Below are positions 614 through 19,670 of a stretch of 64,000 nt of DNA, in pieces; the first letter of the stretch is position 1; each line of letters starts with the position of its first letter. Below the pieces are notes generated by a model. That model searched no databases, was not told the DNA's origin, and was given only the letters and a program-made list of their open reading frames with translations. The DNA is from Streptococcus cristatus ATCC 51100 (GTDB taxonomy: Bacteria; Bacillota; Bacilli; Lactobacillales; Streptococcaceae). The DNA is taken from assembly GCF_011612585.1 (NCBI RefSeq), contig NZ_CP050133.1:1116001-1180000 (forward strand). Reading direction: 5' to 3'. A program made the translations under genes and the position numbers.

Positions 614-666
614 CTTTATCCCCTTTCTAGAACCAAGCTATTCTTTCAGATAAAAAGCTTCGTTTT

Positions 667-1332
667 CTATTCTCCCTGCACCAATAAATCATAAGGAAAA
701 TACTCTAAATCTTTCAAGCGTTCGTCATAAATTCCTTTGATCTTGCAGGTTGCGGCGGTGTCAAAACTCCAGTAACCATAATAACCACAGTGTTCATATT
801 GATGAGAATTATACCAAGGTTCATCTGAATGACTATAGTACCAGAAACCCTGCGCCTTGGCCACACTCTCATAAGTGTCCTCAATCATATTTTGATACTC
901 TAGAATCGAATGAAAAGGAACTACCGTATCATGGAATAAATAAGTCATGTAATATTCAATCAAGCCATCATTGTGGTCCATCTGCTCATAAATAGCCTTT
1001 AAATCATCCAGAAATTCTCCCTTGCGCTCACTATAAAGGACTTCCAATGCAAAGATGTTAACTGCCAAGTCAAATGGAACCCCCTCTGAGACAATGAGCT
1101 TCAAATTAGAAAGAATCCCTTTATAATAGGGGAAAATCTCCTCTTTCGCAGCCCCTATAGAATAGGAAAGTTTCACTAGTTCTTCATTGAACAAAACCAA
1201 GAATTGGTAATGGACTTGTAGATAATCTTTCATGATATCTTTAGTTTTACTTGTTTTCTTTTTTAAGCGCTCTTGTACACGATTCAATCGTCTTTCAAAA
1301 TACGCATAATCTTTGTGTTTGTCTCTTATCAT
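667..1332 (-). CDS. PoNi-type immunity protein (DUF1910/DUF1911), copy 1
   Basis: A 221-aa protein with the hallmarks of the PoNe-immunity (PoNi) family. The N-terminal helical half corresponds to DUF1910. The C-terminal half has the DUF1911 signature: residues SHSDEPWYNSH, then GYWSFDTAA, then a terminal YFPYDLLV motif. Known PoNi proteins bind and neutralise PoNe DNase toxins delivered by type VI/VII secretion or contact-dependent systems; they act in the cytoplasm. It is a tandem duplicate of the next gene (1354-2019), nearly identical over the last 120 residues and more divergent in the N-terminal third. No PoNe toxin gene is present in the window, so it is an orphan here. Confidence 0.85.
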   Translation of the reverse strand: MIRDKHKDYAYFERRLNRVQERLKKKTSKTKDIMKDYLQVHYQFLVLFNEELVKLSYSIGAAKEEIFPYYKGILSNLKLIVSEGVPFDLAVNIFALEVLYSERKGEFLDDLKAIYEQMDHNDGLIEYYMTYLFHDTVVPFHSILEYQNMIEDTYESVAKAQGFWYYSHSDEPWYNSHQYEHCGYYGYWSFDTAATCKIKGIYDERLKDLEYFPYDLLVQGE

Positions 1333-1353
1333 ATATTAACTCCCTTTCTTAGC

Positions 1354-2019
1354 TTATTCTCCCTGCACCAACAAATCATAGGGAAAATACTCCAACTCCC
1401 TCAAGCCTTCGTCGTAAATTCCTTTGATCTTGCAGGTTGCGGCGGTATCAAAACTCCAGTAGCCATCATAGCCTCTATTGTCATACTTATGGGTTCCATA
1501 CCAAGGTTCATCTGAATGACTATAATACCAGAAACCCTGCGCCTTGACTACGCTCTCATAAGTGTCCTCAATCATATTTTGATACTCTAAAATCGAATGA
1601 AAAGGAACTACCGTATCATGGAATAGATAGATCATGTAGTATTCAATTAAGCCATCTGTGTGGTCCATCTGCTCATAAATAGCCTTTAAATCATCCAGAA
1701 ACTCTTCCTTGTGCTCACTGTAAAGAACTCCCAAAGCAAAGACATCAACTGCACGATAAAAGGGGATTCCCTCTGAAGCAATAACTTTGAGATGAGACAG
1801 AATACCTTGATAATAGGGAAAAATCTCCTCTTTCGAAGCCCCTATAGAATAGGAAAGTTTCACTAGTTCTTCATTATTCAAAACCAAATCTTGATAATGG
1901 AACAACAAATACTCCTCCGCAATCTCATCCGTTATCTTAATATTCTTCTCTAATCGTTTTTGAACAAAAGCTATCCATTTTTCAAAATACGCTTGATCTT
2001 TGTGTTTGTCTCTTAGCAT
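1354..2019 (-). CDS. PoNi-type immunity protein (DUF1910/DUF1911), copy 2
   Basis: A 221-aa paralogue of the gene at 667-1332, read just before it with a 21-bp spacer. It carries the same DUF1911 features: SHSDEPWYGTH, GYWSFDTAA and the YFPYDLLVQGE end. The two copies differ mainly in residues 10-50 and 70-100, the half expected to carry toxin specificity; the shared C-terminal half is nearly unchanged. That pattern fits duplication followed by divergence against variant PoNe toxins (inference). Both genes end with the same bases, and a third copy of this 3' end lies just upstream at about 2045-2107. Confidence 0.85.
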   Translation of the reverse strand: MLRDKHKDQAYFEKWIAFVQKRLEKNIKITDEIAEEYLLFHYQDLVLNNEELVKLSYSIGASKEEIFPYYQGILSHLKVIASEGIPFYRAVDVFALGVLYSEHKEEFLDDLKAIYEQMDHTDGLIEYYMIYLFHDTVVPFHSILEYQNMIEDTYESVVKAQGFWYYSHSDEPWYGTHKYDNRGYDGYWSFDTAATCKIKGIYDEGLRELEYFPYDLLVQGE

Positions 2020-2044
2020 ATATTGACTCCCTTTCTATGCTTAA

Positions 2045-2107
2045 TCTCTCTACACCAACAAATCATATGGGAAGTACTCCAACTCCCTCAAGCCTTCATC
2101 GTAGATA
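2045..2107 (-). pseudogene. Orphan 3' tail of a third PoNi gene
   Basis: The bases after the YezG-like gene repeat the last about 20 codons of the PoNi genes (encoding a form of IYDEGLRELEYFPYDLLV) with only a few substitutions. There is no gene body attached. It is best read as the leftover 3' end of a third PoNi copy whose body was lost or replaced by recombination. Confidence 0.7.
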
Positions 2108-2108
2108 T

Positions 2109-2594
2109 TTAGCCTTGTTTTTTATATTCTTCCATTTCTTTAAAAAGTTGAAGTAAATCATTATTTTCAGGTTCTTCTCCTAAACATTTATGTTTAAAAA
2201 AAGACAATCTTTGATTAGAGGTAAAGGGACTGGCAAACCAATCAGTGTAATCAAACTCAACTTTTAATTGCTTCCGAGATTTTACTATTAAAACCATTGC
2301 ATACCATTTAGGTTGATTATTATTTTCTAAAACCTCTAAAATATTTCTAGAAATACTCATTAATTGATTAAAGGAGTCCATATATTCGGAAAATGGAATA
2401 TCATAAATTACTGGTATATCATGTGAGAAAATATATTTTTCAGGACTTTCTTTCGTATTAAAATAGAAAAAAACTTCTCCGTCCCCTTCCTTTAACTCAA
2501 CATTAAAGTATAAATCATTCCACGTTTCCGGAATCATACGATTTACATTATTTGCTATATCATTAAACAATTGGCTTAATTGATTTTCAAACAT
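2109..2594 (-). CDS. YezG-type immunity protein (DUF600)
   Basis: A 161-aa protein matching the YezG/DUF600 immunity family (TIGR01741-like). It has an N-terminal helix, then MIPETWNDLYF, a beta stretch with VFFYFNT, and the family's conserved C-terminal block EFDYTDWFASPFTSNQRL followed by FFKHKCLGEEP. In Bacillus subtilis, YezG is the antidote to the LXG DNase YeeF/YezP. A Shine-Dalgarno (CAGGAGG) lies ahead of the ATG at 2594. No cognate LXG toxin gene is adjacent, so this is an orphan member of the array. Confidence 0.85.
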   Translation of the reverse strand: MFENQLSQLFNDIANNVNRMIPETWNDLYFNVELKEGDGEVFFYFNTKESPEKYIFSHDIPVIYDIPFSEYMDSFNQLMSISRNILEVLENNNQPKWYAMVLIVKSRKQLKVEFDYTDWFASPFTSNQRLSFFKHKCLGEEPENNDLLQLFKEMEEYKKQG

Positions 2595-2616
2595 TTTTAA
2601 CCTCCTGGTTTATTCC

Positions 2617-2784
2617 TTATCTGATTAATTCTTCAAGAGGAATATCATTTAATTTAGCTTTCCATGCATGCTCCATAGAATACCAAACTCCACCACTCCT
2701 GCTAATATTACTATTCATAGGAAAAAGAATAGTAATATCGCAAGCCACCCATAAATGGAAGCAAACAAGTTCAATGCTTTGATT
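2617..2784 (-). pseudogene. 55-codon open tail without a start, remnant of a larger gene
   Basis: Between the YezG-like gene and the gene at 2854 there is a stop-free stretch of 55 codons ending in TAA. It reads as real protein (contains WVACDITILFP, SGGVWYSMEHAW and ends IPLEELIR) but has only an internal Met and no ribosome-binding site. It looks like the C-terminal end of a deleted gene. I cannot tell whether it came from a toxin or another immunity gene. Confidence 0.45.
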
Positions 2785-2853
2785 TTAAATAATGCTTTAT
2801 TATTTGATTCATTATTGCGATTCACCTTCCTAGGAATAAATAATTTCAGATGA

Positions 2854-3186
2854 TTATTTGAATATAGACACATCCACTATTTTTCCTGAGCTTATATCAA
2901 TTTTGCATCTTCTAGCATAAAAATCCGTCGCATAAAGCCAGCCATCTATCAAAATCATCTGTTCGAACGGATAAATAAGCTTACTGTATCCACTGTTAGC
3001 AATGGTCCAAACTACAGTTCCTCTACAATCAAGTCTGATAATATTATTTTTCTCCAAACTATCAAAAGGTATTTCTAATAAAACAATACACTCCTCATCC
3101 ACTTCTATTAGATCTCGTATAGCAAACTGAAAAATTTTAGTAATTTCACCATTCACTATTAGTTTGTTGTTTTCATATTCTACCAT
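2854..3186 (-). CDS. Hypothetical protein in immunity array
   Basis: A 110-aa predicted beta-rich protein (alternating hydrophobic strands such as VEYENNKLIVNG and GTVVWTIANSG). No family recognised, no signal peptide, no membrane segment. Its ATG at 3184-3186 overlaps the stop codon of an orphan upstream tail (3180-3260), the arrangement expected of translational coupling to a gene that has since been lost. The same-strand context suggests an immunity protein, which remains inference. Confidence 0.5.
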   Translation of the reverse strand: MVEYENNKLIVNGEITKIFQFAIRDLIEVDEECIVLLEIPFDSLEKNNIIRLDCRGTVVWTIANSGYSKLIYPFEQMILIDGWLYATDFYARRCKIDISSGKIVDVSIFK

Positions 3187-3260
3187 TCAAGTAACCTTTC
3201 TATAATCTGTTCTATGCCTTTTCCCATCATCCTTAAAATCTCACTATTGGCACGTCGATA
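3180..3260 (-). pseudogene. Orphan C-terminal tail overlapping the next start
   Basis: A 26-codon open tail (ending IEQIIERLLEW) terminates at a TAG that overlaps the ATG of the 110-aa gene downstream. It begins directly after an in-frame TGA and has no start. The overlap implies that a full gene once stood here and was co-translated with its neighbour. Confidence 0.4.
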
Positions 3261-3300
3261 TCATTCACTAAGAAGGTCGTACATAGAAAGTCTATATTGC

Positions 3301-3711
3301 TTAAAAAAGACTCTCAATTAGACTAGAAAAACTGGAACAAACAAAGGTCGCCTCTTTAAACTCATCATAGTTCTTTTCATGATTCCAAAAAACTACGCTT
3401 TTCTCAGCTGAATAATCAAAACATAATAAATTTCCAAAACCATCTTCCACAAAGGGAATCAGCTGGTCACCAAGTCGATCTTGTAGATCTTCAAGAATTT
3501 CATATATATTATTGTCTTCATTTTCGTCTAGGCTGATTAAATTGTTGAAAATTTCCACCTTCTCACCTACCTTAAAATGATTGGGATTAGGATAACCACC
3601 ATCATATTTCAAAGCGACTTGCTTATAATCATCTGGTAGAGTAATCTGCAATCTATGCTCCACACTTTTTATGATATCCTTAGAAATTCCCTTATAATTT
3701 AACCACTTCAT
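3301..3711 (-). CDS. SMI1/KNR4 (SUKH-1) family immunity protein
   Basis: A 136-aa protein with the SUKH-1 layout: ITLPDDYKQVALKYDGG near residue 25, a central IFNNLISL strand, LIPFVEDGFGNLLCFDY around residue 90, VVFWNHE around 108, and a C-terminal helix ending SLIESLF. SUKH proteins are cytoplasmic immunity factors for diverse nuclease and deaminase toxins. The reading frame stays open for 25 codons upstream of the chosen ATG (to 3786) and that stretch has protein-like content, but the ATG aligns with the usual N-terminus of the family. Confidence 0.8.
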   Translation of the reverse strand: MKWLNYKGISKDIIKSVEHRLQITLPDDYKQVALKYDGGYPNPNHFKVGEKVEIFNNLISLDENEDNNIYEILEDLQDRLGDQLIPFVEDGFGNLLCFDYSAEKSVVFWNHEKNYDEFKEATFVCSSFSSLIESLF

Positions 3712-3860
3712 ATTCGTACTTGATTTCCTTTCCCAAACTTCTCTAAACTGCTCTGGCTCCTGTTTCCTATTAAACTTTGGATTTTTCTAAAATCTTTACA
3801 TAAGACGGTTGAAGCTGAGAAGCATTTGATAAAAGATAGGCAAATTTATGAATTATATAC

Positions 3861-4340
3861 TTATAGAAGTATATCTTGATAGCCAATTTCAGACAAAAGG
3901 CCATTGGTAAATTTTATTCCTATGCCATTTTCTTTGTCCCAATCACAATCACATAAAAAGCCAAATTCTTCAACACCTTCATCAAAGGTTAGAGGAAACA
4001 TGATTTGCTTAGGCTGCAATAGAGAATAAATTTGCTGCTCATCTCCCATTTTATTTAAAAAAGATTGTTTTTCAGCTAAATTTGTAAAACTGGAAACAAT
4101 ATCTGATATTTCTCGATCATAGTACGATAAAATAGCAGAATTAGCTTCTGTTACAATTTCATCCAAATGTTCTTGAAAAAATGTATAGGCTTTTTCTTGG
4201 TTTATTTCAAATTCTGCATCTTCATCTGCATCAATATTTATCTCTAAAACATGCTGCTTACCGAACATCGTTATAGAAATAGGTCTTGTCCAGCCATTAT
4301 TAAATTCTATGTTACCGAAAATTTGATGATTCATTTTCAT
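3861..4340 (-). CDS. DUF6985-type protein, probable immunity protein
   Basis: A 159-aa protein with an N-terminal IFGNIEFNNGW segment and a C-terminal block FLCDCDWDKENGIGIKF followed by GLLSEIGYQDI. I recognise this pattern from DUF6985 proteins found in polymorphic-toxin immunity loci. It is cytoplasmic and acidic. It sits eight bases from the stop of an orphan tail (4349-4429). Family assignment is moderate; the immunity role is inferred from family context and neighbours. Confidence 0.6.
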   Translation of the reverse strand: MKMNHQIFGNIEFNNGWTRPISITMFGKQHVLEINIDADEDAEFEINQEKAYTFFQEHLDEIVTEANSAILSYYDREISDIVSSFTNLAEKQSFLNKMGDEQQIYSLLQPKQIMFPLTFDEGVEEFGFLCDCDWDKENGIGIKFTNGLLSEIGYQDILL

Positions 4341-4348
4341 TGTTCTCT

Positions 4349-4429
4349 TTATTCTCCAAGTTCGTCAACTAGGTAACCGCAAAAATCTTTCTTACCTTCT
4401 ATGCAGTCTTTTTTCACTGCTTCATCAAT
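4349..4429 (-). pseudogene. Orphan C-terminal tail
   Basis: A 26-codon open stretch (contains KKDCIEGKKDFCGYLVDEL) ends at a TAA eight bases before the DUF6985-like start. It begins right after an in-frame TGA and has no start codon. It appears to be the 3' remnant of another lost array gene. Confidence 0.4.
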
Positions 4430-4456
4430 TCAATGCAATTTCGTTGTCGAAAATAG

Positions 4457-4903
4457 TTATTGGCCTTGCATTTCCTCAAACCATTTTTCAAACTCTAGAT
4501 TTGGAAGCAACTCTTCATCCTTGTCATAACGACCTTCATAGCTATAGCGACTGTCAAGGCTGTTTTTCTGAGCATCATAGACAAGCCACATTTCAGTTGG
4601 GTGCTCGCGACCGTATTCTTGGCAGATTTCAATCATGTTTTCTACATCCTTGATACCTTCTCTCAGTAAGATTGATTGGAGACCGATATCAACTTGAGAA
4701 TCATCTGGTAAAAAATTATTCACCAAGTGTTTATGTACAACCTTCCCTTTTATTTCATAAAACAAATTAAAACTATATAAACTATCTGCTATTGCATAAA
4801 TGTATATTTTATCTGCTTGTTCTTGAACATATTCCATTGCTAACGAAATCATGCTAGCCTGAACTTCCATAAATTTGTCTTCAAATTGTGTCATTGTATT
4901 CAT
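4457..4903 (-). CDS. Hypothetical protein, probable immunity protein
   Basis: A 148-aa acidic protein. It starts with a long amphipathic helix (FEDKFMEVQASMISLAMEYV), followed by KIYIYAIADSLYSFNLFYEI and KVVHKHLVN. This FYxIxGKVVHKH pattern looks like a small conserved family in firmicute toxin-immunity clusters, but I cannot name it. No signal peptide or membrane segment. Alternative: a general cytosolic protein of unknown role. Confidence 0.55.
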   Translation of the reverse strand: MNTMTQFEDKFMEVQASMISLAMEYVQEQADKIYIYAIADSLYSFNLFYEIKGKVVHKHLVNNFLPDDSQVDIGLQSILLREGIKDVENMIEICQEYGREHPTEMWLVYDAQKNSLDSRYSYEGRYDKDEELLPNLEFEKWFEEMQGQ

Positions 4904-4930
4904 CCTATCTAATTCTTTTAGCTTTTCAAG

Positions 4931-5258
4931 TTAGTGGACACTATTCATAAAGCGCTCGACTTCTTCAACACGATTATAGAATCGGTATTGATTTCTGTTC
5001 GCCAAAAAAATCCAGCTATATCAAGTCATAATAGAAGGTATCATCTTCCATAAGCCGGTCTAGAAGGTCTACTAAATTAGGAGCAATTTCCTTATCATAA
5101 TAGTAGATTTTCCCCTTATTTTCAGCAGCAAATCCGATAGATAGAAGCGCTACTTCATTGGCTTCAAAGAAAACTAATTTATCATTCTCAAATTGATTGT
5201 AGATTTCAATATCTGGATAAAACTGGTTCAACGGATCTAATTTAATCTTCTCAAACAT
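4931..5258 (-). pseudogene. Disrupted immunity-like gene (possible SUKH relative)
   Basis: The frame from 5258 encodes 80 aa (contains SIGFAAENKGKIYYYDKEIAP) and stops at a TAG at 5016-5018. Protein-like sequence resumes downstream (FLANRNQYRFYN...VERFMNSVH) to a TAA at 4931. That continuation returns to the original frame if one base is removed from a run of seven T (minus strand; 5004-5010). So two lesions, a nonsense codon and a homopolymer indel, appear to break a roughly 108-codon gene. Alternatively the 80-aa product is itself functional. Confidence 0.45.
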
Positions 5259-5294: not shown

Positions 5295-6149
5295 TCAACT
5301 TTTATTTTCTTTTGGTTCACCTATCTGAAAAAATTGCCTAACATCCTCTACGTAACCATACTTGTCATTCAAGTAAGCCAATAATTCTCGGTTATGCCCT
5401 TGGTAATTATCTTCGCGACGTAATTCTTCATACATTTCGATGAAAGGAAGAGCTTTTTCTTTGGCTAATTCTAACTCTGCTTCGTAGTCATAAGCGACTT
5501 TTCGGAATTGGATATTTACCAGTTCCCCGTCTTCAACTTCTAACAAGGCATACTGGGCACGGTGATTTTTCAAGGCCGACCAATCAAAATAGGGCATGCC
5601 AATCGAACCGGGATTGATAATCTGTTGCCCTTGGCTGCCATAACGAAGCAACTGCTTGTGGACATGACCGTAAATTGCCACATCAGTCTCCTCATCCAGT
5701 AGCCGGTCAAATTTGTCCGTATCATTGTCAACCAGTAGGTCACTCCCATAGTTTTTGGCAGGCAAATTATGTGAGAGCGAAAAACGCAGCCCATCAATTT
5801 CTTTCTTCGCAACCATAGGCAGACTCCGCAGCCAGGTGATCTGATCAGGGTCCATTCGCTCCATCAAATACTGCGTCATACGCAAGAGCTGGACTTCCTG
5901 TGGGTCTTCTAAGCCATATTGACCATCTAAAGCCTCTAGGACACAATCATCCCAGTTTCCGCGGACAGTCGCTGTGATAGGAAGGTCTTTTAACAAGGCT
6001 AGCAAGTCATTTTCCCCCGGACCAGGGAGAAAAATATCCCCTAGAAGCCAATACTCCGTCGCTTCCTGCCTTTTAGCATCTGACAGAACTGCCTTCAAGG
6101 CTGTGGTATTCCCATGTATATCAGATAGAATCGCGATTTTATGTTTCAT
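5295..6149 (-). CDS. Calcineurin-like metallophosphoesterase (YfcE/MJ0936-type)
   Basis: A 284-aa protein with the metallophosphoesterase motif series: DIHGN at residues 9-13, LLGD near 35, GNWDD near 65, SHN near 128 and GHVHK near 161, followed by INPGSIGMP. These residues form the di-metal centre of phosphodiesterases. The last 60 residues add a helical extension not needed for the core. The substrate is unknown. The gene is ordinary chromosomal content standing inside the immunity array; its codon use looks less A+T-rich than its neighbours. It probably marks the original neighbour of the island. Confidence 0.85.
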   Translation of the reverse strand: MKHKIAILSDIHGNTTALKAVLSDAKRQEATEYWLLGDIFLPGPGENDLLALLKDLPITATVRGNWDDCVLEALDGQYGLEDPQEVQLLRMTQYLMERMDPDQITWLRSLPMVAKKEIDGLRFSLSHNLPAKNYGSDLLVDNDTDKFDRLLDEETDVAIYGHVHKQLLRYGSQGQQIINPGSIGMPYFDWSALKNHRAQYALLEVEDGELVNIQFRKVAYDYEAELELAKEKALPFIEMYEELRREDNYQGHNRELLAYLNDKYGYVEDVRQFFQIGEPKENKS

Positions 6150-6215: not shown

Positions 6216-7922
6216 TTATTTATCCGCATCGGCATTACTTATATTTGCTTCAATCATTGCTCTGACCTGCTGGCGTTGTTCCTCATTCAGATTCAACTTC
6301 TGTAGTTGTTTTTCAATACTAAATTCTGAGGTACTGTATTTCTTATCATACATCTCTAATAATTTATTACGAAGAATAGGCTCGCTGATCAAATGAATTT
6401 CTTTCAATAGTTCTTCTTCATTTCCTTCCTGCTCCTCTTCTCCATTAAGTCTTTCAATCATAGAATTAATCTTCGCTAAGGCAAAATCACCATAAATATT
6501 CTCAATCAAATTTTCCTTCATGATTTCTTGTATATTTTTAGCGAAAGTATTTTGTAAAACTTTTCCTTCTGAATATCCAGTTTCTTGATTCTTTTCAATC
6601 AAAATCACATTTCCTGGTTTAATATCAGATAACATATAGGGAGAGTGGGTTGTGAAAATAAGCTGTAAATTTACGTCTTCCCGTCGTCTCTCTCTTTTCA
6701 AAAACTCTACGAAGTTATTAATTAACTTTCGTGACCATTCCAGATGCATTCCCATTTCTATTTCGTCAATTAAAAATATATAATCTCTGATATATTCATT
6801 AAATTGTTGTGAAGTCAAAGCATTTGAAAATAATCTAATAAAGTTAGTTTCACCTGCTGACATACAAAAAGAATCAAATTTTAGAATATTAAATCTATAA
6901 TATGAATACTGATTTAAAAAACTACGAAGTGAGTCAAATTCCTTACAAATATCTAAAAACTCTTGATCTTGTAATAAATCTCGTGAAAAGTTCACTAATA
7001 TTTCTTCACCCTCTATAGAGATAATATAATTATTAAGATGCAATAAAAAATCAGAAATCTTTTGAAAAACTTCTACAAAACTTACTTTCCGATTTTCTAC
7101 TTTCAAACTATTCATTAGCGAAGCTAACTCATTATCTAAATAACGCATTTTTTCTAAATAAAATGTAATATCTGACTCACAGTCATCATTATCTTGGTAT
7201 TTGAAATACTCTATCTCGCTCACTGCTTTATCTATCTTTTCTTCATAATCATTTAAATAACCGTATCTATTTGCTTCAAAGTTGGAAATTAAGCTTAAAC
7301 AAACATCTTTAATAAATTCTTTCTTATTATCAATCTTATTAGGTAAATAAGAATTAATTAATAAGATTTTAAATTTGAAATCAGAAAAAATCTCTTTATC
7401 ATAAAACTCTGAGTAAATCCTAAAATAATTTTCTAACGAGGACCAATTGATTTCCATTTCTAATATATTGCTGTTTTCTGGCACCCCTGTCACACCAAAA
7501 AAAGATTGATTATGCAAATTATAATAATTTATTGCTGTGTTTATATTTGGTTTTTGAAATTGTTTATCATCACCATAAACTTCAAAATTCTCATTCTCTT
7601 GTATATCTATATTGTGCCTATCTACTTTGAATTTTTCATTATCCCTAAATACTTTAAAATAAGAACTATTACTTTCTAAATGAGAATCTGATTCCCTCAT
7701 CAATCTCAATAAAGTTGATTTCCCAGTCCCATTTATCCCAACTATTGGTGAAATATTATAAATAGACTCTCCATAAAAGTTTTCAATATAGTCTGGATTT
7801 TTATCAATTTTTAATTCATTTGTTTCAAAGTTAAAATCAACTTTATATTCATCTGAAAAATTAAAAATCTGTTCTTTAAAAAGCTTATCATACTGTTTAA
7901 TCACCAAAGCAATTAATTTCAT
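6216..7922 (-). CDS. AAA/ABC-type ATPase of an HNH-ATPase defence module (Septu/PtuA-like)
   Basis: A 568-aa SMC/OLD-like ATPase. Walker A is GINGTGKST at residues 62-70; a degenerate ABC signature MSAGETNF lies near 354; Walker B IFLIDEIEMGMH near 380; and FTTHSPYMLSDI near 425 matches the conserved THSP box of AAA_21/AAA_15 proteins. Residues 100-340 form a long insertion rich in charged helices, and 450-568 a charged helical tail. No membrane segment, so it is not a transporter. The start overlaps the HNH gene stop by four bases (ATGA), so the two proteins are made as a coupled pair. Such ATPases sense infection and control a nuclease partner in Septu, retron-Ec78 and related systems. Function here is inferred. 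Confidence 0.75.
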   Translation of the reverse strand: MKLIALVIKQYDKLFKEQIFNFSDEYKVDFNFETNELKIDKNPDYIENFYGESIYNISPIVGINGTGKSTLLRLMRESDSHLESNSSYFKVFRDNEKFKVDRHNIDIQENENFEVYGDDKQFQKPNINTAINYYNLHNQSFFGVTGVPENSNILEMEINWSSLENYFRIYSEFYDKEIFSDFKFKILLINSYLPNKIDNKKEFIKDVCLSLISNFEANRYGYLNDYEEKIDKAVSEIEYFKYQDNDDCESDITFYLEKMRYLDNELASLMNSLKVENRKVSFVEVFQKISDFLLHLNNYIISIEGEEILVNFSRDLLQDQEFLDICKEFDSLRSFLNQYSYYRFNILKFDSFCMSAGETNFIRLFSNALTSQQFNEYIRDYIFLIDEIEMGMHLEWSRKLINNFVEFLKRERRREDVNLQLIFTTHSPYMLSDIKPGNVILIEKNQETGYSEGKVLQNTFAKNIQEIMKENLIENIYGDFALAKINSMIERLNGEEEQEGNEEELLKEIHLISEPILRNKLLEMYDKKYSTSEFSIEKQLQKLNLNEEQRQQVRAMIEANISNADADK

Positions 7923-9358
7923 TCTTCTTCTCCTACTAGTCCAATTTCTTTGCTAATATCTGTAACCATTTTTGAAAGTGGTCTATTCCCATAATTTTCT
8001 TTGTCTGTATAATAACCAACTATCATTCTATCTATCTCATATTTTGAAAACTTTTTATCGGACGTAGCTAAAATTTCTTCTAACTTAATTTTATAGCTAT
8101 TACTATAAACTTCCTGCTTCCACAATAATTCTTGGACAACATCTGTGTGTAGTTTATATAGATTTCTTGTGTCAATCACATATTTATCCTTCAATAATTT
8201 CTGTCTGACACTTAATTCATCCTTGCTTTCTAATTGTTTTAACTTCTCCTCTGATATGTCATCCTTTACTATAATATCAATATTTGCTGAATTATTTATA
8301 AAATCAGCTAATTTTGGTTTCCACGAAAACATCAACAATTCATCAACATCAGTTATACTTTCATCATAGGGAGAGATATAAAATTTACTCGTACTCTTTT
8401 TATTATTACAACCATAACAAGAAGGAATTAGATTGTAAAAACATAAAGCGAATAGAGGATATTCATTCTTAGGGAAAAAATGGTCTAACTGACTCGTATT
8501 AGCCTCCTCGGTTACATTTATAAAATTTCTATTACAATATGGACAAACTGTGACACCAGTTATGCGAACTAACTCTTTTTTGTCTATTCTATTGTAAAGG
8601 GTTTCTAATACTCTTTTAAATTCATTTTGGAGATATTTTTTTAAAGGCACCTTGTATTCTATCTTTTCAGGAAATTTCGGGCACCATTTTTTATTAAAAT
8701 CTTCCTGTCCATAAATTTCCAACAAATCCTCAAGCTTTATACTACATTTAGAGGATTCGAGCGCTTTTTCAAAAGATTCTCTGAAACTTATATCAAGTTT
8801 AGAGAGTAGTAACTCAGCAAACTCCTTTTTCTTGTCAATTTTATTTATTAAAATATTTACTTCATTAGTAATCTCTATGTTTTTCTCTTTAACAAAGCTA
8901 TTAATTTTCTTCAATTTTTTATTGGACTTATATTCAAGTAGAATAAGTAGGTTAATATCATCTTTAACCCTGTCTATATTACCAATTTGTTTCTCTTTAA
9001 ACCAACTATTGCATTCCTCAATAAAATCTTTATCCAAATGCTGATAAATAATCCTTAGGAATTTATTGAGTGAGTGGTTACATTTATTGGATTTTATACT
9101 AATGCTTTCATTTATCTCAAACTTAGCTTCACTTTGCCCATCAATTCTTTCTTTTACCTTCTGTAATTCCTTATATTCAAGAGTCATCAATTTTAAAAAC
9201 AACTCCTCATCGTCAGACTGGATTTCTGGAAAAATATCACTAAACTCATCTTTTAAAATATGGTTCAATCTTTCTTTATCATTTTCCGAGATCATTTCAT
9301 AAATATCCTTACAAAATTCATATACTTGTTCAGAATTGCTCTTTTTTATCGGAATCAT
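7919..9358 (-). CDS. HNH endonuclease of an HNH-ATPase defence module (PtuB-like domain)
   Basis: A 479-aa protein with a zinc-finger HNH domain in the middle: CPYCNRNF near residue 271, LDHFFPK near 291, FYNLIPSCYGCNNKK near 305-318. The two CxxC pairs and the DH/N residues are the expected metal-binding and catalytic elements of His-Me-finger nucleases. The first 250 residues are Lys/Glu-rich helices with no recognised domain, and about 150 residues follow the HNH. Septu PtuB proteins are typically much shorter, so the long N-terminal half is notable. The gene comes first in the operon, opposite to the classical ptuA-ptuB order. An extended -10 promoter lies directly upstream. Confidence 0.75.
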   Translation of the reverse strand: MIPIKKSNSEQVYEFCKDIYEMISENDKERLNHILKDEFSDIFPEIQSDDEELFLKLMTLEYKELQKVKERIDGQSEAKFEINESISIKSNKCNHSLNKFLRIIYQHLDKDFIEECNSWFKEKQIGNIDRVKDDINLLILLEYKSNKKLKKINSFVKEKNIEITNEVNILINKIDKKKEFAELLLSKLDISFRESFEKALESSKCSIKLEDLLEIYGQEDFNKKWCPKFPEKIEYKVPLKKYLQNEFKRVLETLYNRIDKKELVRITGVTVCPYCNRNFINVTEEANTSQLDHFFPKNEYPLFALCFYNLIPSCYGCNNKKSTSKFYISPYDESITDVDELLMFSWKPKLADFINNSANIDIIVKDDISEEKLKQLESKDELSVRQKLLKDKYVIDTRNLYKLHTDVVQELLWKQEVYSNSYKIKLEEILATSDKKFSKYEIDRMIVGYYTDKENYGNRPLSKMVTDISKEIGLVGEEE

Positions 9359-9388: not shown

Positions 9389-9397
9389 ATTATACCA
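9389..9397 (-). promoter_or_regulatory. Extended -10 promoter of the HNH-ATPase operon
   Basis: The minus strand reads TGGTATAAT, a perfect extended -10 (TGnTATAAT), about 30 bases ahead of the HNH start codon. No good -35 is present because that position is occupied by a hairpin sequence (9401-9420). Confidence 0.65.
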
Positions 9398-9400
9398 CAA

Positions 9401-9420
9401 AAGACCGTTTGCACGGTCTT
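9401..9420 (-). terminator. Hairpin upstream of the HNH-ATPase promoter (terminator, or operator)
   Basis: Perfect 8-bp arms (AAGACCGT / ACGGTCTT) enclose four bases; on the minus strand the loop is GCAA, a GNRA tetraloop, and the stem is followed by TTTTG. This suits an intrinsic terminator that insulates the module from the upstream immunity genes. The same palindrome covers the -35 position of the module's promoter, so a repressor operator is an alternative. Confidence 0.5.
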
Positions 9421-9501: not shown

Positions 9502-9957
9502 TTAAATGACTACATTCAAATCTTTGCCCGAAATACCTTCAAGAAATACTTCATCAATTTCTGGTTTTAATTTTTTTAGTTTAAATTTTTGAATCTTCGT
9601 TATTTCGGGCTGAAAAGAGATAGTCCCACTTGGAAATTGGCCTCTGAGAATTTTAGTATAGACATCTATTACAAAATCTTCCCACTCCTTTGATAGCGGA
9701 TTTTCAAAGGCTGCCTCTCCCTCAAGTAAATACCTGATGCCATCTGCACGATAGAAAGCTAATAAAGCCACTGAAAGACTGCACTTGGAATGATTAAGCA
9801 CTACTTTTGGCACTTCAAATCCATTATCCCAGTTAAAATTGTCCAGCAAGACAAACAGCTCATCTTCAGTTTAAAACTGCTTAAGGCACACCACAGCTTT
9901 AGCATTGCTTTCAGCGTACAAAATATCAGCTATTTGCTGAATTTGTCGATTATCCAT
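9502..9957 (-). pseudogene. DUF4274 gene with an in-frame stop
   Basis: The recognisable DUF4274 domain (LDNFNWDNGFEVPKVVLNH, then CSLSVALLAFYRADGIRYLL) lies in a 115-codon frame beginning at a TTG. The true start is the ATG at 9955-9957, 36 codons upstream in the same frame, encoding MDNRQIQQIADILYAE. A TAA at 9871-9873 (codon 29) interrupts it. DUF4274 proteins occur in immunity clusters. The gene is probably inactive unless translation restarts at the TTG. Confidence 0.7.
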
Positions 9958-9965
9958 TTAAAACT

Positions 9966-10454
9966 TCAACTCCCTCCTAATAATCCTAAGCTTTCCAATT
10001 TTTGCAAGGCGGCATTTTTTGAAGGAGGACAATCATTCTTCAAAAAGCCCTTAATTTCTTCAAGATAATTATAAAAATTCATATTGATTTCTTTTAAATT
10101 CTCAATAAATAAGTCTACTAAGCTTGAATCAATATTTTCCAAAGGAGAAGGCAATTGTTGCTGATTGTCCAGCAGATAGGCTTCCCTAGCAGTTGCACCG
10201 ATTGCATAGCTAAGATTGTCCCACGATGGAACATTAGCCTCATTCTCGTCTAATTGCATGTAGATGAAAATTCCCTTAAAATCCGTTCCATCATCTAGTA
10301 GACTATAAAGCTCTTTGCCCGTTTTGCTGTTATTTTCCACAAAACTCCAGCAAGCGTCCAAGGCAACTCGAATTTGTGGCTTATATTCTGTTTCCATATG
10401 ATTTAGGATGGCTTCTGAGTAGACCAGCATGAGATAAAATTGATTGGTATTCAT
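9966..10454 (-). CDS. Imm6-like immunity protein, copy 1
   Basis: About 162 aa. It has an ALDACWSFVENN segment, a KELYSLLDD segment, then WDNLSYAIGATAREAYLL and LPSPLENIDSSLVDLF, a pattern I associate with the Imm6 family of polymorphic-toxin immunity proteins. All-helical and soluble. The frame can begin upstream at a TTG (10475), but the ATG at 10452-10454 is preferred because it follows the upstream gene's stop closely and matches the family's N-terminus. It follows a related gene (10465-10953). Confidence 0.6.
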   Translation of the reverse strand: MNTNQFYLMLVYSEAILNHMETEYKPQIRVALDACWSFVENNSKTGKELYSLLDDGTDFKGIFIYMQLDENEANVPSWDNLSYAIGATAREAYLLDNQQQLPSPLENIDSSLVDLFIENLKEINMNFYNYLEEIKGFLKNDCPPSKNAALQKLESLGLLGGS

Positions 10455-10464
10455 ATTCTCGCAT

Positions 10465-10953
10465 TTACTCCTCAAACAAAAATTCTAAGTAAGGGCTAAC
10501 AGAGGGGTCTGCGACATAGGCTTCCTCCTCAAGCCATTTCGTTCTCCTTGCAATGTCACTGTAGCTTCTAACCAGTTGCTTATAATGAATAAAATAATCT
10601 TCGAGCGTATCTTCATCCACACACTCTATGGTTTGGGGCAAGTACTGCTGTCCAACTGCTTTGTATGACTGATAAACTACTAACGCAATGAAAGAATCAA
10701 TACATCTCCACACAGCTAGATCGGTGCTTTTATCCAGCTCCGAATAGGTTAAGATGTCTTCCTCGTCTAAATTTTCCAATCTATCATACAGAAAGTCTGG
10801 GTCGGACTCACTAAGCCTATCAATACATCGGCCTGCAATGTCTAACGTTTCATGCACATATTCCTTATAATCCGAGTTTCCTATATATGTTTCTAGCGGT
10901 TCTGTTAATTTTTGCATAAATTGCAAAAGATTGAGGTTAAGAGTAAATTCCAT
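10465..10953 (-). CDS. Imm6-like immunity protein, copy 2 (divergent)
   Basis: A 162-aa helical acidic protein. Its middle, AVWRCIDSFIALVVYQSYKAVGQQYLPQTIE split by charged loops, aligns by eye with the corresponding WDNLSYAI...AY...LP segment of the gene downstream (9966). The two are therefore probably distant paralogues, though this one alone would be hard to place. The stop overlaps the region of the next gene's Shine-Dalgarno, so the two are likely co-translated. Confidence 0.5.
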   Translation of the reverse strand: MEFTLNLNLLQFMQKLTEPLETYIGNSDYKEYVHETLDIAGRCIDRLSESDPDFLYDRLENLDEEDILTYSELDKSTDLAVWRCIDSFIALVVYQSYKAVGQQYLPQTIECVDEDTLEDYFIHYKQLVRSYSDIARRTKWLEEEAYVADPSVSPYLEFLFEE

Positions 10954-11037
10954 TTTGATTCCTTTCTGAACCTAGGACGCTGCAAAAGCTATCATGGCTC
11001 TAGAAAATTGACTTTACATTAAAGCTAGTGTCTAATT

Positions 11038-11517
11038 TCATTCTTCATCTCCTGTAGTAGCCTTCAAAAATGCTTGTTTGAAATCCTCGTACATATCAAA
11101 GGCGATTTTCATGACATCTCTAAAATCAACATAATCAGAAATTACGGGATCCAAAATGATATAGTCTCTTGAGATTAGCCATTTGGCATAAGATGCAAAG
11201 GGGCTACCCATGATGGCTTTATTTCCCTCATAGATGACCCAGATCAATTCTAATCTTCCTCGTTCAAAAGCAAAATGAAAGCCAAAGCGAAAAGGTCCGA
11301 TTTCCTCCAAATCAATATGGAAAAAGCGCTCTCGTTTATCATACTGCACTTTGTAGCCTAATAATTCCACAATTTCCATCAGAAAATCGCCGTCAAAATA
11401 ATCCAATTCTTGGCCTTTTGGGGTTCTGTTCTGACTATAATACGCTGATAATTCTTCATATCTCTCTACAAAGTTAATTTCTTTTAAAGCCTGTTTAATT
11501 CTAGTGTCTAAGTTCAT
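11038..11517 (-). CDS. Paralogous immunity-like protein, copy 1
   Basis: A 159-aa protein of a family I cannot name. It begins MNLDTRIKQALKEINFVERY, has YFDGDFLMEIVELLGY in the middle, and a C-terminal VISDYVDFRDVMKIAF helix. It is a tandem duplicate of the gene just upstream (11514-11993); start and stop overlap by four bases (ATGA). The two copies are near-identical in residues 1-70 and in the last 35, but differ in the middle strands (EEIGPFRFGFHF versus ESVEKFQFGFHF and the following loops). An immunity role is inferred. Confidence 0.55.
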   Translation of the reverse strand: MNLDTRIKQALKEINFVERYEELSAYYSQNRTPKGQELDYFDGDFLMEIVELLGYKVQYDKRERFFHIDLEEIGPFRFGFHFAFERGRLELIWVIYEGNKAIMGSPFASYAKWLISRDYIILDPVISDYVDFRDVMKIAFDMYEDFKQAFLKATTGDEE

Positions 11518-11993
11518 CCCTCATCTCCTGTAGCAGCTTTCAAAAATGCTTGTTTGAAAGCTTCATACATTTCAAAAGCGATTTTCATGACGTCACGAAA
11601 ATCTACATAGTCGGAAATAATTGGCTGTTTGATAATATAATCACGCGCAATCATCAACCTTGGATACCTAGTCCAAGGAGAACCAAGGACAACTTTATCT
11701 CCTTCATAAACAACCCAAATCAATTCTAAGCGACCATACTCAAGAGAAAAATGGAAACCAAATTGAAATTTTTCGACTGATTCCAAATCAATATGGAAAA
11801 AACGTTCTCGTTTATCATATTGAGCTTTGTAACCTAATAATTCCACGATCTCCATCAGAAAATCACCATCAAAATAATCTAATTCTTGACCTTTCGGAGT
11901 TCTTTTCTGACTATAATATGTCGATAATTTTTCATATCTCTCTACAAAGTTGATTTCTAGTAAAGCCTGTTTAATTCTAGTATCTAGCTTCAT
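11514..11993 (-). CDS. Paralogous immunity-like protein, copy 2
   Basis: A 159-aa tandem paralogue of 11038-11517. It shares RTPKGQELDYFDGDFLMEIV and the FRDVMKIAFEMYEAFKQAFL end. Its stop overlaps the downstream start by four bases, and its own start overlaps the stop of the upstream 129-aa gene (11990-12379) by four bases, giving a three-gene translationally coupled chain. This tight packing is typical of an array grown by in-place duplication. Confidence 0.55.
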   Translation of the reverse strand: MKLDTRIKQALLEINFVERYEKLSTYYSQKRTPKGQELDYFDGDFLMEIVELLGYKAQYDKRERFFHIDLESVEKFQFGFHFSLEYGRLELIWVVYEGDKVVLGSPWTRYPRLMIARDYIIKQPIISDYVDFRDVMKIAFEMYEAFKQAFLKAATGDEG

Positions 11994-12379
11994 TCTTCAT
12001 CTCCTGCATCAACTATTTCTACATTTAAAATACCATCATCCAAGAATTCTTCCTCGAATATTTCTCCACTTTCAAACATAAAGTGTTTATTCATTGCTAT
12101 TGACATGTGTTTTAGTTCAGAAAATGCATCCTCCAGGCCGTCCAGAGCTAAAAAGATATCTACAAATCCATATGTATAAGAGGGATCTTGAGATGATGAA
12201 ATTTCATTTTTCTTTTTTTCTAACAAGCCAAGCCCGCTATTTAATTGATTCAAACATTCATTTATAGCTTTTTCACAGCTTTTTAAATCGTCTAGCCCCT
12301 CCTCACTTAAAAGCTTTCCATTGTAGTTCTGATTTAAGTTCTCACAAAAGCTGATATATCTCGTTACTAGCTCATTCAT
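11990..12379 (-). CDS. Helical array protein, family A, copy 1
   Basis: A 129-aa acidic helical protein. It shares with the genes at 13274 and 14150 an N-terminal LNxxxxGKLL segment, a central helical GLxxLE segment, and (with 13274) an identical C-terminal KHFMFESGE / EEEFLDDGILNV type ending. No known domain recognised. The repeated association with the L7/L12-like family B genes suggests that A and B work together, but here copy A follows the Imm22 gene instead. Confidence 0.55.
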   Translation of the reverse strand: MNELVTRYISFCENLNQNYNGKLLSEEGLDDLKSCEKAINECLNQLNSGLGLLEKKKNEISSSQDPSYTYGFVDIFLALDGLEDAFSELKHMSIAMNKHFMFESGEIFEEEFLDDGILNVEIVDAGDEE

Positions 12380-12389
12380 TTTCCTCTAC

Positions 12390-12770
12390 CTATCTATAAT
12401 TGACGGTCGCAATAAATTTGATATTGGGCTGCTCTTTGACTTGCCCACAATATTTATAATTATAAAGCAAAATAATGGAATTACTTTCAGGTATGGCTAA
12501 GTCATCTTCAATCTTCTTTAAATTATCTATGACAACATCTGCATATGAGGCTCCGATTAAATGGTCATATACATTTAAAAATCTGGAATCGCAATATTCT
12601 TTTTCAATTAGGTAGTCGTCAATATCATCAATATCAATTTGAAAAGCGTCATAAAACTTGGAACTGACGATTTCTCCGTCATCATCATACCTTAAGTCGA
12701 TATAGCTATCCAGCTCTTCCCTACTTGCAAAATTTCCAACCCAAATTGATACTGTATTTTCAGTCTCCAT
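12390..12770 (-). CDS. Imm22 family immunity protein
   Basis: A 126-aa protein matching Imm22: it opens VSIWVGNFASREELDSYI, continues with a YDAFQIDIDDIDDYLIEKEY segment, then IGASYADVVIDNL and a C-terminal SIILLYNYKYCG...IKFIATVNY strand pair. Imm22 proteins are cytoplasmic antidotes encoded beside polymorphic toxins. The gene lies ten bases from the next start (12379), so it is probably co-transcribed with the family A gene and the tandem 159-aa genes. Confidence 0.8.
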   Translation of the reverse strand: METENTVSIWVGNFASREELDSYIDLRYDDDGEIVSSKFYDAFQIDIDDIDDYLIEKEYCDSRFLNVYDHLIGASYADVVIDNLKKIEDDLAIPESNSIILLYNYKYCGQVKEQPNIKFIATVNYR

Positions 12771-12858
12771 ATTCTCACCTCTATTTATACTGAAAGTCGC
12801 GCTATTAAAAATTTTAAGCTTATTCTAAAAATGCTACTGATGCTAGAACTTATAGCTT

Positions 12859-13212
12859 TTATCCCTCACTATCGAACATGAGTTCATCTAGTTTTTCTCT
12901 ATCAGCAGCAATATTTTTATAGGTTTCAATGGTATTATTTAGAAATCCCATATCCACTTCAGCTTGTTCTTTGTACAAGTTAATTTCTGCACCTAAACTT
13001 ATGAGACTGGCAAGAATTTCTTGCATAACTATTAACTGGTCTAGATCCAGATAATCACTTTCTAACAAAGTCTCATTTCTCTCTATTCTCGTCTTGATTT
13101 CACCAATTGGCAAAGTGCTATGTTTCCTCATTATTTTACATGCCTGTAAGATATTATCTGACATTTTGACATTTGCGTAGATTATTGACACCACTCGCTC
13201 CTTTATAAACAT
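12859..13212 (-). CDS. Family B array protein with L7/L12-C-terminal-like motif, copy 1
   Basis: A 117-aa protein. The segment LPIGEIKTRIERNETLLESDYLD split by loops, followed by LASLISLGAEINLYKE, resembles the ribosomal L7/L12 C-terminal (ClpS-like) fold, where a Gly-Glu-Ile-Lys turn precedes a helix and a Leu-Gly-Ala strand. It is a paralogue of 13777-14109. Each B gene directly follows a family A gene. The role is unknown; immunity or an adaptor for immunity is plausible. Confidence 0.55.
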   Translation of the reverse strand: MFIKERVVSIIYANVKMSDNILQACKIMRKHSTLPIGEIKTRIERNETLLESDYLDLDQLIVMQEILASLISLGAEINLYKEQAEVDMGFLNNTIETYKNIAADREKLDELMFDSEG

Positions 13213-13273
13213 CTTCCATTAAAAGCATTCCTTCACTCGGTCACCCCATCTTTAGTTATGCGAGAAAATTGAT

Positions 13274-13669
13274 TTAATTTGAGTCACCATCTTCATCCAG
13301 ATATTTAACATTTAGGATTCCATCATCTAGGTATTCTTCCTCGGATGTTTCTCCGCTTTCAAACATCAATTTCTTATTCAAGGATAGCAGCAAGTCATCC
13401 GCATCATCCAATAAAACCTCTAGTCGTCTCAGTCCCCAAAAAATTTCAAGAATCCCTTTTGTATATGCCCTGTTTCTTGAAGATTCAATTGATTCAGCCT
13501 GACTTTCCAAGATCTGAAGGCCACCTCTTAACTGTTCGAAACTTGAATCCCAGTCATCACGAATGTCCTCCAGAAAATCATCTAACTTCTCCTGATCAAG
13601 CAGTTTTCCACTAAATTTATCATTGAGTCTTGAGCATACCTGATGCAAATTTTCTAGTACTTCTTTCAC
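13274..13669 (-). CDS. Helical array protein, family A, copy 2
   Basis: A 131-aa acidic helical protein. LHQVCSRLNDKFSGKLLDQE starts the shared family A pattern, and it ends with KKLMFESGETSEEEYLDDGI, nearly the same as the end of 11990-12379. The next gene in the direction of transcription is a family B gene (12859), with a 61-bp spacer. The A-B pair recurs at 14150 and 13777. Confidence 0.55.
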   Translation of the reverse strand: MKEVLENLHQVCSRLNDKFSGKLLDQEKLDDFLEDIRDDWDSSFEQLRGGLQILESQAESIESSRNRAYTKGILEIFWGLRRLEVLLDDADDLLLSLNKKLMFESGETSEEEYLDDGILNVKYLDEDGDSN

Positions 13670-13776
13670 TTTCTACTTTCCTTATATATTTATCATCTAC
13701 TTCTATCTTCAAAGGCCACAATCTTGACTGAGAGGGAACAATTTCGCAATATTACTATGTTGGGAAGTCGGAACCA

Positions 13777-14109
13777 TTACTTCGCATCATCGAACATATA
13801 GAAATCGTCTTCCTCAATTTGATTTTTGGTATCTTCTTGTGACTCAATGACATGGCTCAAAAATTGCATGGTTACCTTTTCATCATCAAGGAATAATTGA
13901 AGCTCCCCACCCAATTCGGTTATCTCTTCTACTGTCTTTTTAAAGTTCTTTAGGCGCTCTAAATTCAAATATTCTGTTTCAAGCACAGCCATATGATGAG
14001 TCATTTTTTCCTTGATTGCTCCGATTGGCTCATGACTGAAATCTCTAATTATTTTCAAAATTTTCGTATCGCTATTATCTGACTTTATTTTGGCCATAAA
14101 TTTATGCAT
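13777..14109 (-). CDS. Family B array protein with L7/L12-C-terminal-like motif, copy 2
   Basis: A 110-aa protein. It contains HEPIGAIKEKMTHHMAVLE and EEITELGGELQLFLDD, matching the L7/L12-like pattern of the paralogue at 12859. It follows a family A gene (14150-14515) by 40 bp. No catalytic residues can be pointed to. Confidence 0.55.
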   Translation of the reverse strand: MHKFMAKIKSDNSDTKILKIIRDFSHEPIGAIKEKMTHHMAVLETEYLNLERLKNFKKTVEEITELGGELQLFLDDEKVTMQFLSHVIESQEDTKNQIEEDDFYMFDDAK

Positions 14110-14149
14110 GACTGCTCCTTTCTAAAATCGATCCATTCGCCGAGTAAAC

Positions 14150-14515
14150 TCATTTTCTATCTTCTTTGCCAATCACATCTTCATCAACAATTTCGCCATT
14201 GATTTCTCTAATCTTCTTTGAAATTTGAATGTGAATCTCCCTTAAATCGGCTACATAATTTTCAATATTTAGCAATGAAGTATAGATATCATACATCCCA
14301 CTTAGGTAGGCTTGATTAGCAGTATCATGTATTGATTCTAAGTCTAAATTTTTCATTGTAGCAAGCCCTCTGGCAAGATTATCGACGTCTTCTTGGAAAT
14401 CTTCATGAATGTCATCATAAACATCCGATATCTTTTCTGGATTTATTAAATGCTCATTATAATGGGAATTTAACTTTGAATAAAGGGTTGTTAATTCTTC
14501 CAATAATTGTTTCAT
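14150..14515 (-). CDS. Helical array protein, family A, copy 3
   Basis: A 121-aa helical protein with the family A layout (LYSKLNSHYNEHLINPEKI, then LARGLATMKN, then YLSGMYDIYTSLLNIENY). It lacks the MFESGE ending of the other two. It is the first gene after a conserved terminator-promoter block (14620-14673) that follows a SUKH gene, so it begins its own transcript. Confidence 0.55.
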   Translation of the reverse strand: MKQLLEELTTLYSKLNSHYNEHLINPEKISDVYDDIHEDFQEDVDNLARGLATMKNLDLESIHDTANQAYLSGMYDIYTSLLNIENYVADLREIHIQISKKIREINGEIVDEDVIGKEDRK

Positions 14516-14619
14516 AAGTGTCCTTTAGTTCATTCTATTCAGGAAAGTATTTGACTTCAAAACAATATCTGCCTCTCGCAAAATAGGCAGGTTGTTAAAA
14601 ATCAATGTCCAATAAAACT

Positions 14620-14628
14620 AGTATAACA
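14620..14628 (-). promoter_or_regulatory. Extended -10 promoter, array block 1
   Basis: The minus strand reads TGTTATACT, a TGn-type extended -10, about 105 bases ahead of the family A gene at 14515. The same element, embedded in matching sequence, occurs at 15729-15737 behind the other SUKH gene. Recurrence supports function. Confidence 0.5.
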
Positions 14629-14652
14629 AAAACTCTAGGAAAAATGAAAATG

Positions 14653-14673
14653 CGATAACAGTAGGTTATCACA
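14653..14673 (-). terminator. Intrinsic terminator after SUKH gene (block 1)
   Basis: Arms GCGATAAC and GTTATCAC enclose five bases; on the minus strand the stem is followed by a T-rich run (ATTTTCATTTTT). It lies 15 bases after the SUKH stop at 14689 and is copied at 15761-15781. Confidence 0.7.
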
Positions 14674-14688
14674 TTAAACAAAATAAGA

Positions 14689-15609: not shown

Positions 15610-15610
15610 T

Positions 15611-17717: not shown

Positions 17718-19550
17718 TCAATCTATATCTACAATCGGCTCCGCCACTTCTAACAAAGGTCGGGATGGCTCTGTTTGATTGAGTTTTGCCTGCACAGCTT
17801 CTGCCACCGCTCGCGGTACGCCCACTTCGACGATTTCATCGACACTGGCTTCTTTAATCTTGGTCAGTGATTTGAAATGTTTCATGAGATTTTGCTTACG
17901 TTTTGGCCCCAAACCTTCGATGCCATCGAGTTGCGATGAGAAGGAATTCTTAGATCGAAGCTGGCGGTGGAAGGTAATGGCAAAGCGGTGCACCTCATCT
18001 TGGATGCGCTGGAGGAGGAAAAATTCCTGAGAATTACGGGACAGTTCTACGACTTGAAGAGGATCGCCAAAGAGCAATTCATGGGTCTGGTGCTTGTCAT
18101 TTTTTTGCAGTCCAGCGATAGGAATATCCAATCCCAACTGCTCCTGAATAACTTCTTTAGCGACATTGACCTGGCCTTGCCCACCATCAATGACAATCAG
18201 ATCTGGTGGCGTCAGCCCGTCACGAATGACCCGACTATAGCGGCGCTTGATAACCTCTCGCATACTGGCGTAGTCGTCCGGCCCTACCACGGTCTTGATC
18301 TTGTATTTGCGGTAATCCTTCTTGCTCGGCTTACCATTGACAAAGACCACCATAGCCGATACGGGACTAGTTCCCATGATATTTGAGTTGTCGAAAGACT
18401 CAATCCGAACGGGTGTCGGAATATTGAGGAGCTTCCCTAGATTTTCTATAGCCCCCTGCGTTTTCTCAACGGATTTCTCCAAAAGATCAAATTTCTGCTG
18501 GAGGCTGACCCGAGCATTCTTAATAGCCAGATTGACCAACTGCTTCTTCTCGCCTCGCTGAGGCTTGACTACTTTAGTATCCACAATCGCTCGGACGGCT
18601 TCTTCGTCAATATATGCTGGAATTAGGATTTCATTGGGCTTGAGGTGGGACTTTTCTTGGTAAAACTGGCCAATATAGGTCAGAAAATCTTCGTCGGGAT
18701 CATTGTAATAGGGGAAAAGATTGACATCACGCTCAATCAACTTGCCCTGGCGCACAAAGAAGACCTGCACACACATCCAGCCCTTATCCACATAGTAACC
18801 AAAAACATCACGATTCTGCAAATCCTTAGCCATGACCCGCTGCTTAGTACGCAAGGTTCCAATAGCTTGAATCAGGTCACGGTATTCGGCCGCCCGTTCA
18901 AACTCCATGGCTGCAGCTGTTTTATTCATCTTCTCACGTAGCTCATCGATAATCTTATCGTCCTGTCCCTTGAGAAAATCCGACACTTCCTGAGCCATAT
19001 TCTTGAAATACTGGCTATCCCGCTTGCAAATCGTATGGGCTTCACATTGCCCCAAGTGATAATAAAAGCAGACTTTTGCAGGTGGATTGGTACATTTTTT
19101 GAATGTAAAAATGCGATCGAGCAGGCGTTTGATTTCATTGGCTGCACCGACATCTGGATAAGGCCCAAAATAAAGACCACCATCCTTTTTGACTTGGCGA
19201 GTGATAATCAGACGCGGATAAACCTCGTTGGTAATCTTAATAAAAGGATAGGACTTATCGTCCTTGAGCATGATATTGTACTTGGGCTTATTTTCCTTGA
19301 TTAGATTGATTTCTAGGAGGAGAGCCTCAATGTTGGACTCGGTGACAATAAACTCAAAATCCTCAATCTCGGAAACCAGAGCCTCCGTCTTGGTATCGTG
19401 GCTGCCACGAAAATAAGAGCGAACACGATTGCGGAGATTCTTGGCCTTTCCGACATAGATAATAGTCCCGTTTTTGTCCTTGTGAATGTAACAGCCGGGA
19501 CTGGTCGGCAACAGTTCCAGCTTGGATTGAATTAGCTTGTTTGTAGACAT
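17718..19550 (-). CDS. uvrC: Excinuclease ABC subunit C
   Basis: About 610 aa, normal length for UvrC, which makes both incisions in nucleotide excision repair with UvrB. The N-terminal GIY-YIG domain shows GCYIHKD and [18 protein letters not shown]. The UVR helix that contacts UvrB ([15 protein letters not shown]) lies near residue 220. The RNase H-like 3' domain has [10 protein letters not shown] and [12 protein letters not shown]. Helix-hairpin-helix motifs ([19 protein letters not shown]) sit near the end. The ATG at 19548-19550 is preferred over a TTG three codons upstream. The immunity array starts right at its 3' end. Confidence 0.95.
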
Positions 19551-19670
19551 AATTTCCAAAACCCTATCTTTTCAATAGAAATTTTCATTTTCCTAGAACA
19601 TGCACTTTCTTAACAATTCATTATCATTCTTCGTTGCAAATGTTTCTTTCTAGGCTGGTAGATCTTAGAC

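Follow-up and report, generated by a model that had tools for sequence, protein, structure and literature searches.

What kind of system is encoded by a nuclease-ATPase gene pair of Streptococcus cristatus ATCC 51100, and how has it diversified? The pair lies at positions 6216..9358 of the analysed stretch of 64,000 nucleotides (nt) from contig NZ_CP050133.1 (hereafter the window). A preliminary description made from the letters alone had proposed a Septu relative in reversed gene order, perhaps a separate subtype. We consider it likely that these genes make up a two-protein defence module of the Septu-like (PDC-M62) kind, from a nuclease-first streptococcal branch, that diversifies by homologous recombination, because its catalytic residues are kept, its proteins are related to PtuA and PtuB, it occupies a fixed site with empty alleles, its reversed order belongs to one branch, and its modules are exchanged around anchors. 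The genes and the catalytic core are as follows (aa, amino acids; ORF, open reading frame):

7919..9358, minus strand: HNH nuclease gene, 479 aa (PtuB-like, PDC-M62B), from ORF, profiles and structure matches
6216..7922, minus strand: ABC/SMC-type ATPase gene, 568 aa (PtuA-like, PDC-M62A), overlapping the nuclease gene by 4 bases
8369..8581, minus strand: nuclease aa 260-330, HNH core (C272/C275/D292/H293/N309/C314/C317), from motif alignment

Both ORFs, 9358..7919 and 7922..6216, start with ATG and have an ATGA in common. The two proteins, their four-base overlap and all motifs named in the preliminary description are present in the sequence: CPYC at aa 272, DH at 292-293 and CYGC at 314 of the nuclease, and GINGTGKST at 62, MSAGE at 354, LIDEIE at 384 and THSP at 425 of the ATPase. 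Guanine-cytosine (GC) content is 27.3% and 28.5% for the two genes versus 40.2% for the window. We searched 284 Streptococcus species genomes and found an ATPase match (E<=1e-10) in 26 and a nuclease match (E<=1e-5) in 29, distant families included. Thirteen distinct pairs, that of the window among them, carry common anchors; five were first found in a set of genome contigs and are identical to pairs among the 284. G024, with ATPase and nuclease only as fragments on separate contigs, was dropped, and locus L003, where the contig edge leaves 304 aa of the nuclease, was counted as long on account of a 168-aa N-part at another contig end (L065) of the same genome. All seven of the nuclease residues compared (C272, C275, D292, H293, N309, C314 and C317) are identical throughout the 13 pairs. 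Equally invariant are Walker A (G62/G65/K68), the signature (S355/G357/E358) and Walker B (D386/E387/E389) of the ATPase; the H-loop column H426 is Tyr in one pair (L002).

Comparison of these pairs divided the ATPase gene and the nuclease end into three segments:

7713..8017, minus strand: anchor 1, nuclease aa 448-479 plus ATPase aa 1-70 with Walker A (nt comparison)
6783..7712, minus strand: exchangeable ATPase arm, aa 71-380 (type I), ABC signature included (blastn, aa identity)
6216..6782, minus strand: anchor 2, ATPase aa 381-568 with Walker B and H-loop (blastn, third-position identity)

The arm occurs as four types, 20-32% identical between types and 60-94% within: type I (window, L004, L009, L010), type II (L002, L012, L013, L015, L016, L018), type III (L003, L006) and type IV (L005). 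Long nucleases are found with arms I, II and III and short ones with I, II, III and IV, giving seven of the eight combinations among the 13 pairs; L006 and L016 have identical nuclease N-parts and arms that are 26% alike. Between pairs with unlike arms (9 cassette pairs), blastn matches extended from about nuclease aa 448 (earlier for similar nucleases) to about ATPase aa 70, no match across the arm was returned at the settings used, and matches resumed at about ATPase aa 353-386 and ran past the gene end. Over anchor 1 the window is 92-93% identical in nt to L110 or L006, while the modules on both sides differ.

At third codon positions, identity to the window is 80-95% for ATPase aa 1-66 and 73-93% for aa 416-540 (12 comparisons), 68-93% for nuclease aa 448-479, and 50-57% for unlike arms (9 comparisons); among chromosomal neighbours it is 57-88% for the downstream phosphoesterase gene (9 comparisons) and, for uvrC upstream, 48-52% in nine of ten strains and 84% in L004. 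Since this identity is high in the anchors and low in uvrC and unlike arms, the anchors look younger than the divergence of uvrC, and the modules old. Approximately unbiased (AU) tests rejected a long-nuclease clade on arm data, the arm tree containing long branches. With the nuclease core as data they rejected arm types I, II and III, so that these tree tests reject a shared descent of the modules. The N- and C-parts inside the nuclease appear to recombine too: P0001 and P0002 are 99% alike in the N-part (aa 26-240) and 73% in the C-part (aa 338-445), P0001 and P0003 are 100% alike in the C-part and 28% in the N-part, and P0040 combines the C-part of P0002 (96%) with an N-part closest to P0003 (67%). 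P0002 and P0003 may contain assembly joins; the genome pairs are independent of both.

Several single alleles stand apart. The L004 ATPase is 624 aa long (versus 568), and overlapping 41-nt matches in 8-residue steps at aa 524-554 suggest that a tandem repeat has enlarged its C-terminal part. The ATPase gene of L010 has one internal stop and that of L023 is in two fragments, so that some alleles look inactive. In protein P0083 (615 aa) the HNH part is followed without a break by an ATPase portion that includes Walker A, either as a fusion or as an assembly join.

The pair occupies a fixed chromosomal site with empty alleles, bordered in the window by two genes:

17718..19559, minus strand: uvrC, upstream border of the site (neighbour comparison)
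5295..6149, minus strand: metallophosphoesterase gene, downstream border, directly downstream of the pair in 10 of 13

In 10 of the 13 pairs uvrC lies upstream, separated by no more than one listed ORF (of at least 110 aa); in the window it is about 8 kb away with immunity-type genes between, and in L002 and L003 the contig ends before uvrC is reached. Ten pair-less genomes were fetched, chosen for a well-matching phosphoesterase gene: uvrC abuts that gene in six, other genes stand upstream of it in three, and one (L094) has immunity-type genes there without the pair.

Septu systems carry the ATPase gene first, as does Septu type I by definition; here the nuclease gene comes first, and the ATGA overlap is found in 12 of the 13 pairs, L016 having a short gap instead. 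Among 47 nuclease proteins from fetched loci, after removal of L020 and L035 as duplicates, 18 were nuclease-first, 21 ATPase-first (10 streptococcal, 11 from outside Streptococcus) and eight of unreadable order. All 18 nuclease-first proteins, each from Streptococcus, fall on one side of a single branch (support 99/95), and all 11 relatives outside the genus with readable order are ATPase-first; the reversed order is therefore, in this sample, a derived trait of one streptococcal branch. M62B was found in 11 of 398 genomes of the phylum, and the 10 besides the window comprised seven ATPase-first, none nuclease-first and three unreadable; in one of the seven (L072) the ATPase was seen only as an 82-aa piece. 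Further nuclease-first pairs with nucleases of 296-310 aa (L022-L025 and L042) occur in other Streptococcus genomes on the same branch as the uvrC-site pairs.

The preliminary description had also taken a helical nuclease N-terminus of 250 residues to suggest the separate subtype, perhaps with a new sensor domain. The alignment instead delimits a shorter element:

8654..9118, minus strand: nuclease aa 81-235, helical insert missing from short (322-341 aa) relatives and strongly variable among long forms (alignment)

Residues 1-60 can be aligned to the short relatives (20-40% identity), leaving an insert of about 155 residues, for which no Pfam family matched. It is found in four of the 13 same-site pairs (window, L002, L003, L012); the branch is not defined by the insert, since the other nine lack it. 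The variable ATPase arm is no worse a candidate for the sensor than the insert.

To which family does the pair belong? In the PADLOC profile check that the preliminary description had called for, PDC-M62 was the best profile for both proteins (nuclease E 2.6e-44, ATPase 1.3e-52), with PtuB and PtuA scoring weaker. Adjacent M62A ATPase and M62B HNH proteins, which make up PDC-M62, are present, and all 40 nuclease homologues in the alignment match M62B; the pair falls inside this already listed candidate family. A published survey states that PADLOC gave 203 pairs both PDC-M62 and Septu names, and it includes PDC-M62 in the PADLOC names to which DefenseFinder gave a different label (PMC11811056). 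The separate subtype thus stands in so far as nuclease-first order marks one streptococcal branch, and falls in so far as PDC-M62 already covers the pair. What is new is a gene-order-reversed, module-shuffling streptococcal lineage of PDC-M62/Septu-like systems: seven of the 10 other M62B genomes of the phylum are ATPase-first, whereas the streptococcal branch is nuclease-first and mosaic. The Septu relationship itself is supported by the PADLOC profile and structure matches. The pair resembles PtuA/PtuB in its ATPase-plus-HNH make-up, H-N spacing of 16 and PtuA-type fold matches, but differs in its weaker profile scores, reversed order and longer nuclease. PDC-M01B also matches the HNH core (E 1.4e-13), although far more weakly than M62B and mostly within that core.

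Several results weigh against a Septu-like defence module built from freely exchanged parts. NCBIfam cut-offs are missed by far (PtuA 37.9 of 500 bits, PtuB 25.5 of 150), and the ATPase matches the PADLOC profiles AbiLi (2.2e-16) and AriA (2.8e-13) about as well as PtuA (1.1e-16). Its predicted model is poor, with a mean predicted local distance difference test score (pLDDT) of 56.6, and its Foldseek PtuA matches have template-modelling (TM) scores of just 0.14-0.22; for the nuclease, plain Foldseek gave no match at E<=0.001, and a profile search of its alignment against the PDB listed no PtuB among its matches. ATPase-end trees group arm types I and II (55/96 and 87/96), so the arms stay partly linked to the ATPase ends and the freest exchange is that of nuclease against ATPase. 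No defence genes were recognised among the Pfam-matched neighbours, only part of the neighbours having been scanned and several of these matching nothing. Finally, shared anchors do not prove that the arms sense phage.

Might the pair instead be an ordinary Septu-family pair, owing its module differences merely to old divergence and its conserved anchors to purifying selection that acts on ATPase head and docking tail? Walker A, Walker B and the H-loop do sit in the anchors, and PDC-M62 is already listed and overlaps Septu calls in the survey cited above (PMC11811056). We nevertheless judge this unlikely: at similar GC (25.2% in the window arm, 23.2% and 32.1% in the anchors), the ATPase anchors reach 73-95% identity at third positions against 50-57% in unlike arms, which largely contradicts it, co-descent is rejected by the AU tests, and the nuclease parts seem to recombine as well.

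The closest structural relatives of the pair are retron I-A/Ec78 complexes, which raises the question of whether it is a retron I-A effector pair whose reverse transcriptase (RT) has been lost or is distant. Effectors of type I-A retrons (Ec78/Eco7, Ec83) resemble it in PtuB- and PtuA-type matches, and its own genome holds three RT matches. The nearest of these, however, is about 624 kb from the pair, and the window has no Rfam family at gathering score; the adjacent RT and non-coding RNA that mark retron type I-A (Septu type II) were thus not found at this locus, and we regard this origin as very improbable. The three RT-like matches (L066-L068, at 1.75 and 1.84 Mb) include two in neighbouring divergent genes, and one adjoins a gene that by eye resembles a restriction specificity subunit. 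A role in competition between bacteria, as part of a toxin-immunity array and not in phage defence, draws on the Imm6, Imm22, SUKH, YezG-like and PoNi genes near the pair, but seems quite improbable given that in 10 of 13 same-site pairs no more than one listed ORF separates the pair from uvrC upstream, and that in G023, a near relative whose phosphoesterase is 96% identical, the array is present and the pair missing (L094).

How might the favoured defence module work? By analogy with studied systems, an ATPase oligomer would keep the nuclease inactive through ATP-dependent docking via the common anchors; the variable arm, perhaps also the nuclease insert, would respond to phage; and the released HNH domain would cut tRNA or DNA and stop the infected cell, an abortive defence. 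The ATPase should thus hold and then release the nuclease here. Judging by which segments are common and which are swapped, we infer that the arm is the phage sensor and that the common tail and head form the docking surface. Published reports describe an E. coli Septu that loses its immunity when Walker and HNH motifs are substituted and that cleaves tRNA-Tyr within the variable loop (PMC13096335), a retron Eco7 PtuAB that likewise depletes tRNA-Tyr, and another Septu reported to cut DNA (both PMC11555353); a review table gives phage single-stranded DNA-binding protein (SSB) as the Septu trigger and DNA cleavage as the effect (PMC12904381).

More tentatively, the uvrC-site pair could be a bacterial immune receptor in two parts whose alleles are pooled across species. 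Nuclease bodies, N-inserts and ATPase arms would then be exchanged around conserved docking anchors by recombination, plausibly following natural transformation; we hold this to be possible but somewhat doubtful. In type I restriction, HsdS target domains are shuffled by recombination. The likeness lies in the exchange of variable modules between conserved anchors; the proteins differ, and DNA-sequence reading by the arms has no support here. If the receptor reading is true, streptococci create fresh pairings of trigger and weapon in much the way that HsdS shuffling creates fresh restriction specificities, and module exchange would be seen to diversify an immune system that is neither restriction nor CRISPR. 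Reports differ on the target of Septu-like nucleases (tRNA in some, DNA in others), and natural recombinants such as L006/L016, in which one part is kept and another replaced, are ready-made controls for which segment sets phage range and which the target.

One further feature was read from the sequence alone:

9389..9397, minus strand: extended -10-like element TGGTATAAT

The pair had been credited with its own extended -10 promoter; the element is there, although at 9397..9389 the promoter scanner reported no -35/-10 pair, and just past the element (9401-9420, plus strand) is a hairpin resembling a terminator. The pair had also been placed in an accessory island. Its surroundings are indeed accessory, but the recognisable neighbours are toxin-immunity-like and an association with defence genes is absent here. 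This array flanks the pair at 143-5258 and 9502-17603 (PoNi, YezG-like, SUKH, DUF6985, Imm6 twice and Imm22 by Pfam match), with tandem copies that are alike at 11038-11993 and 667-2019.
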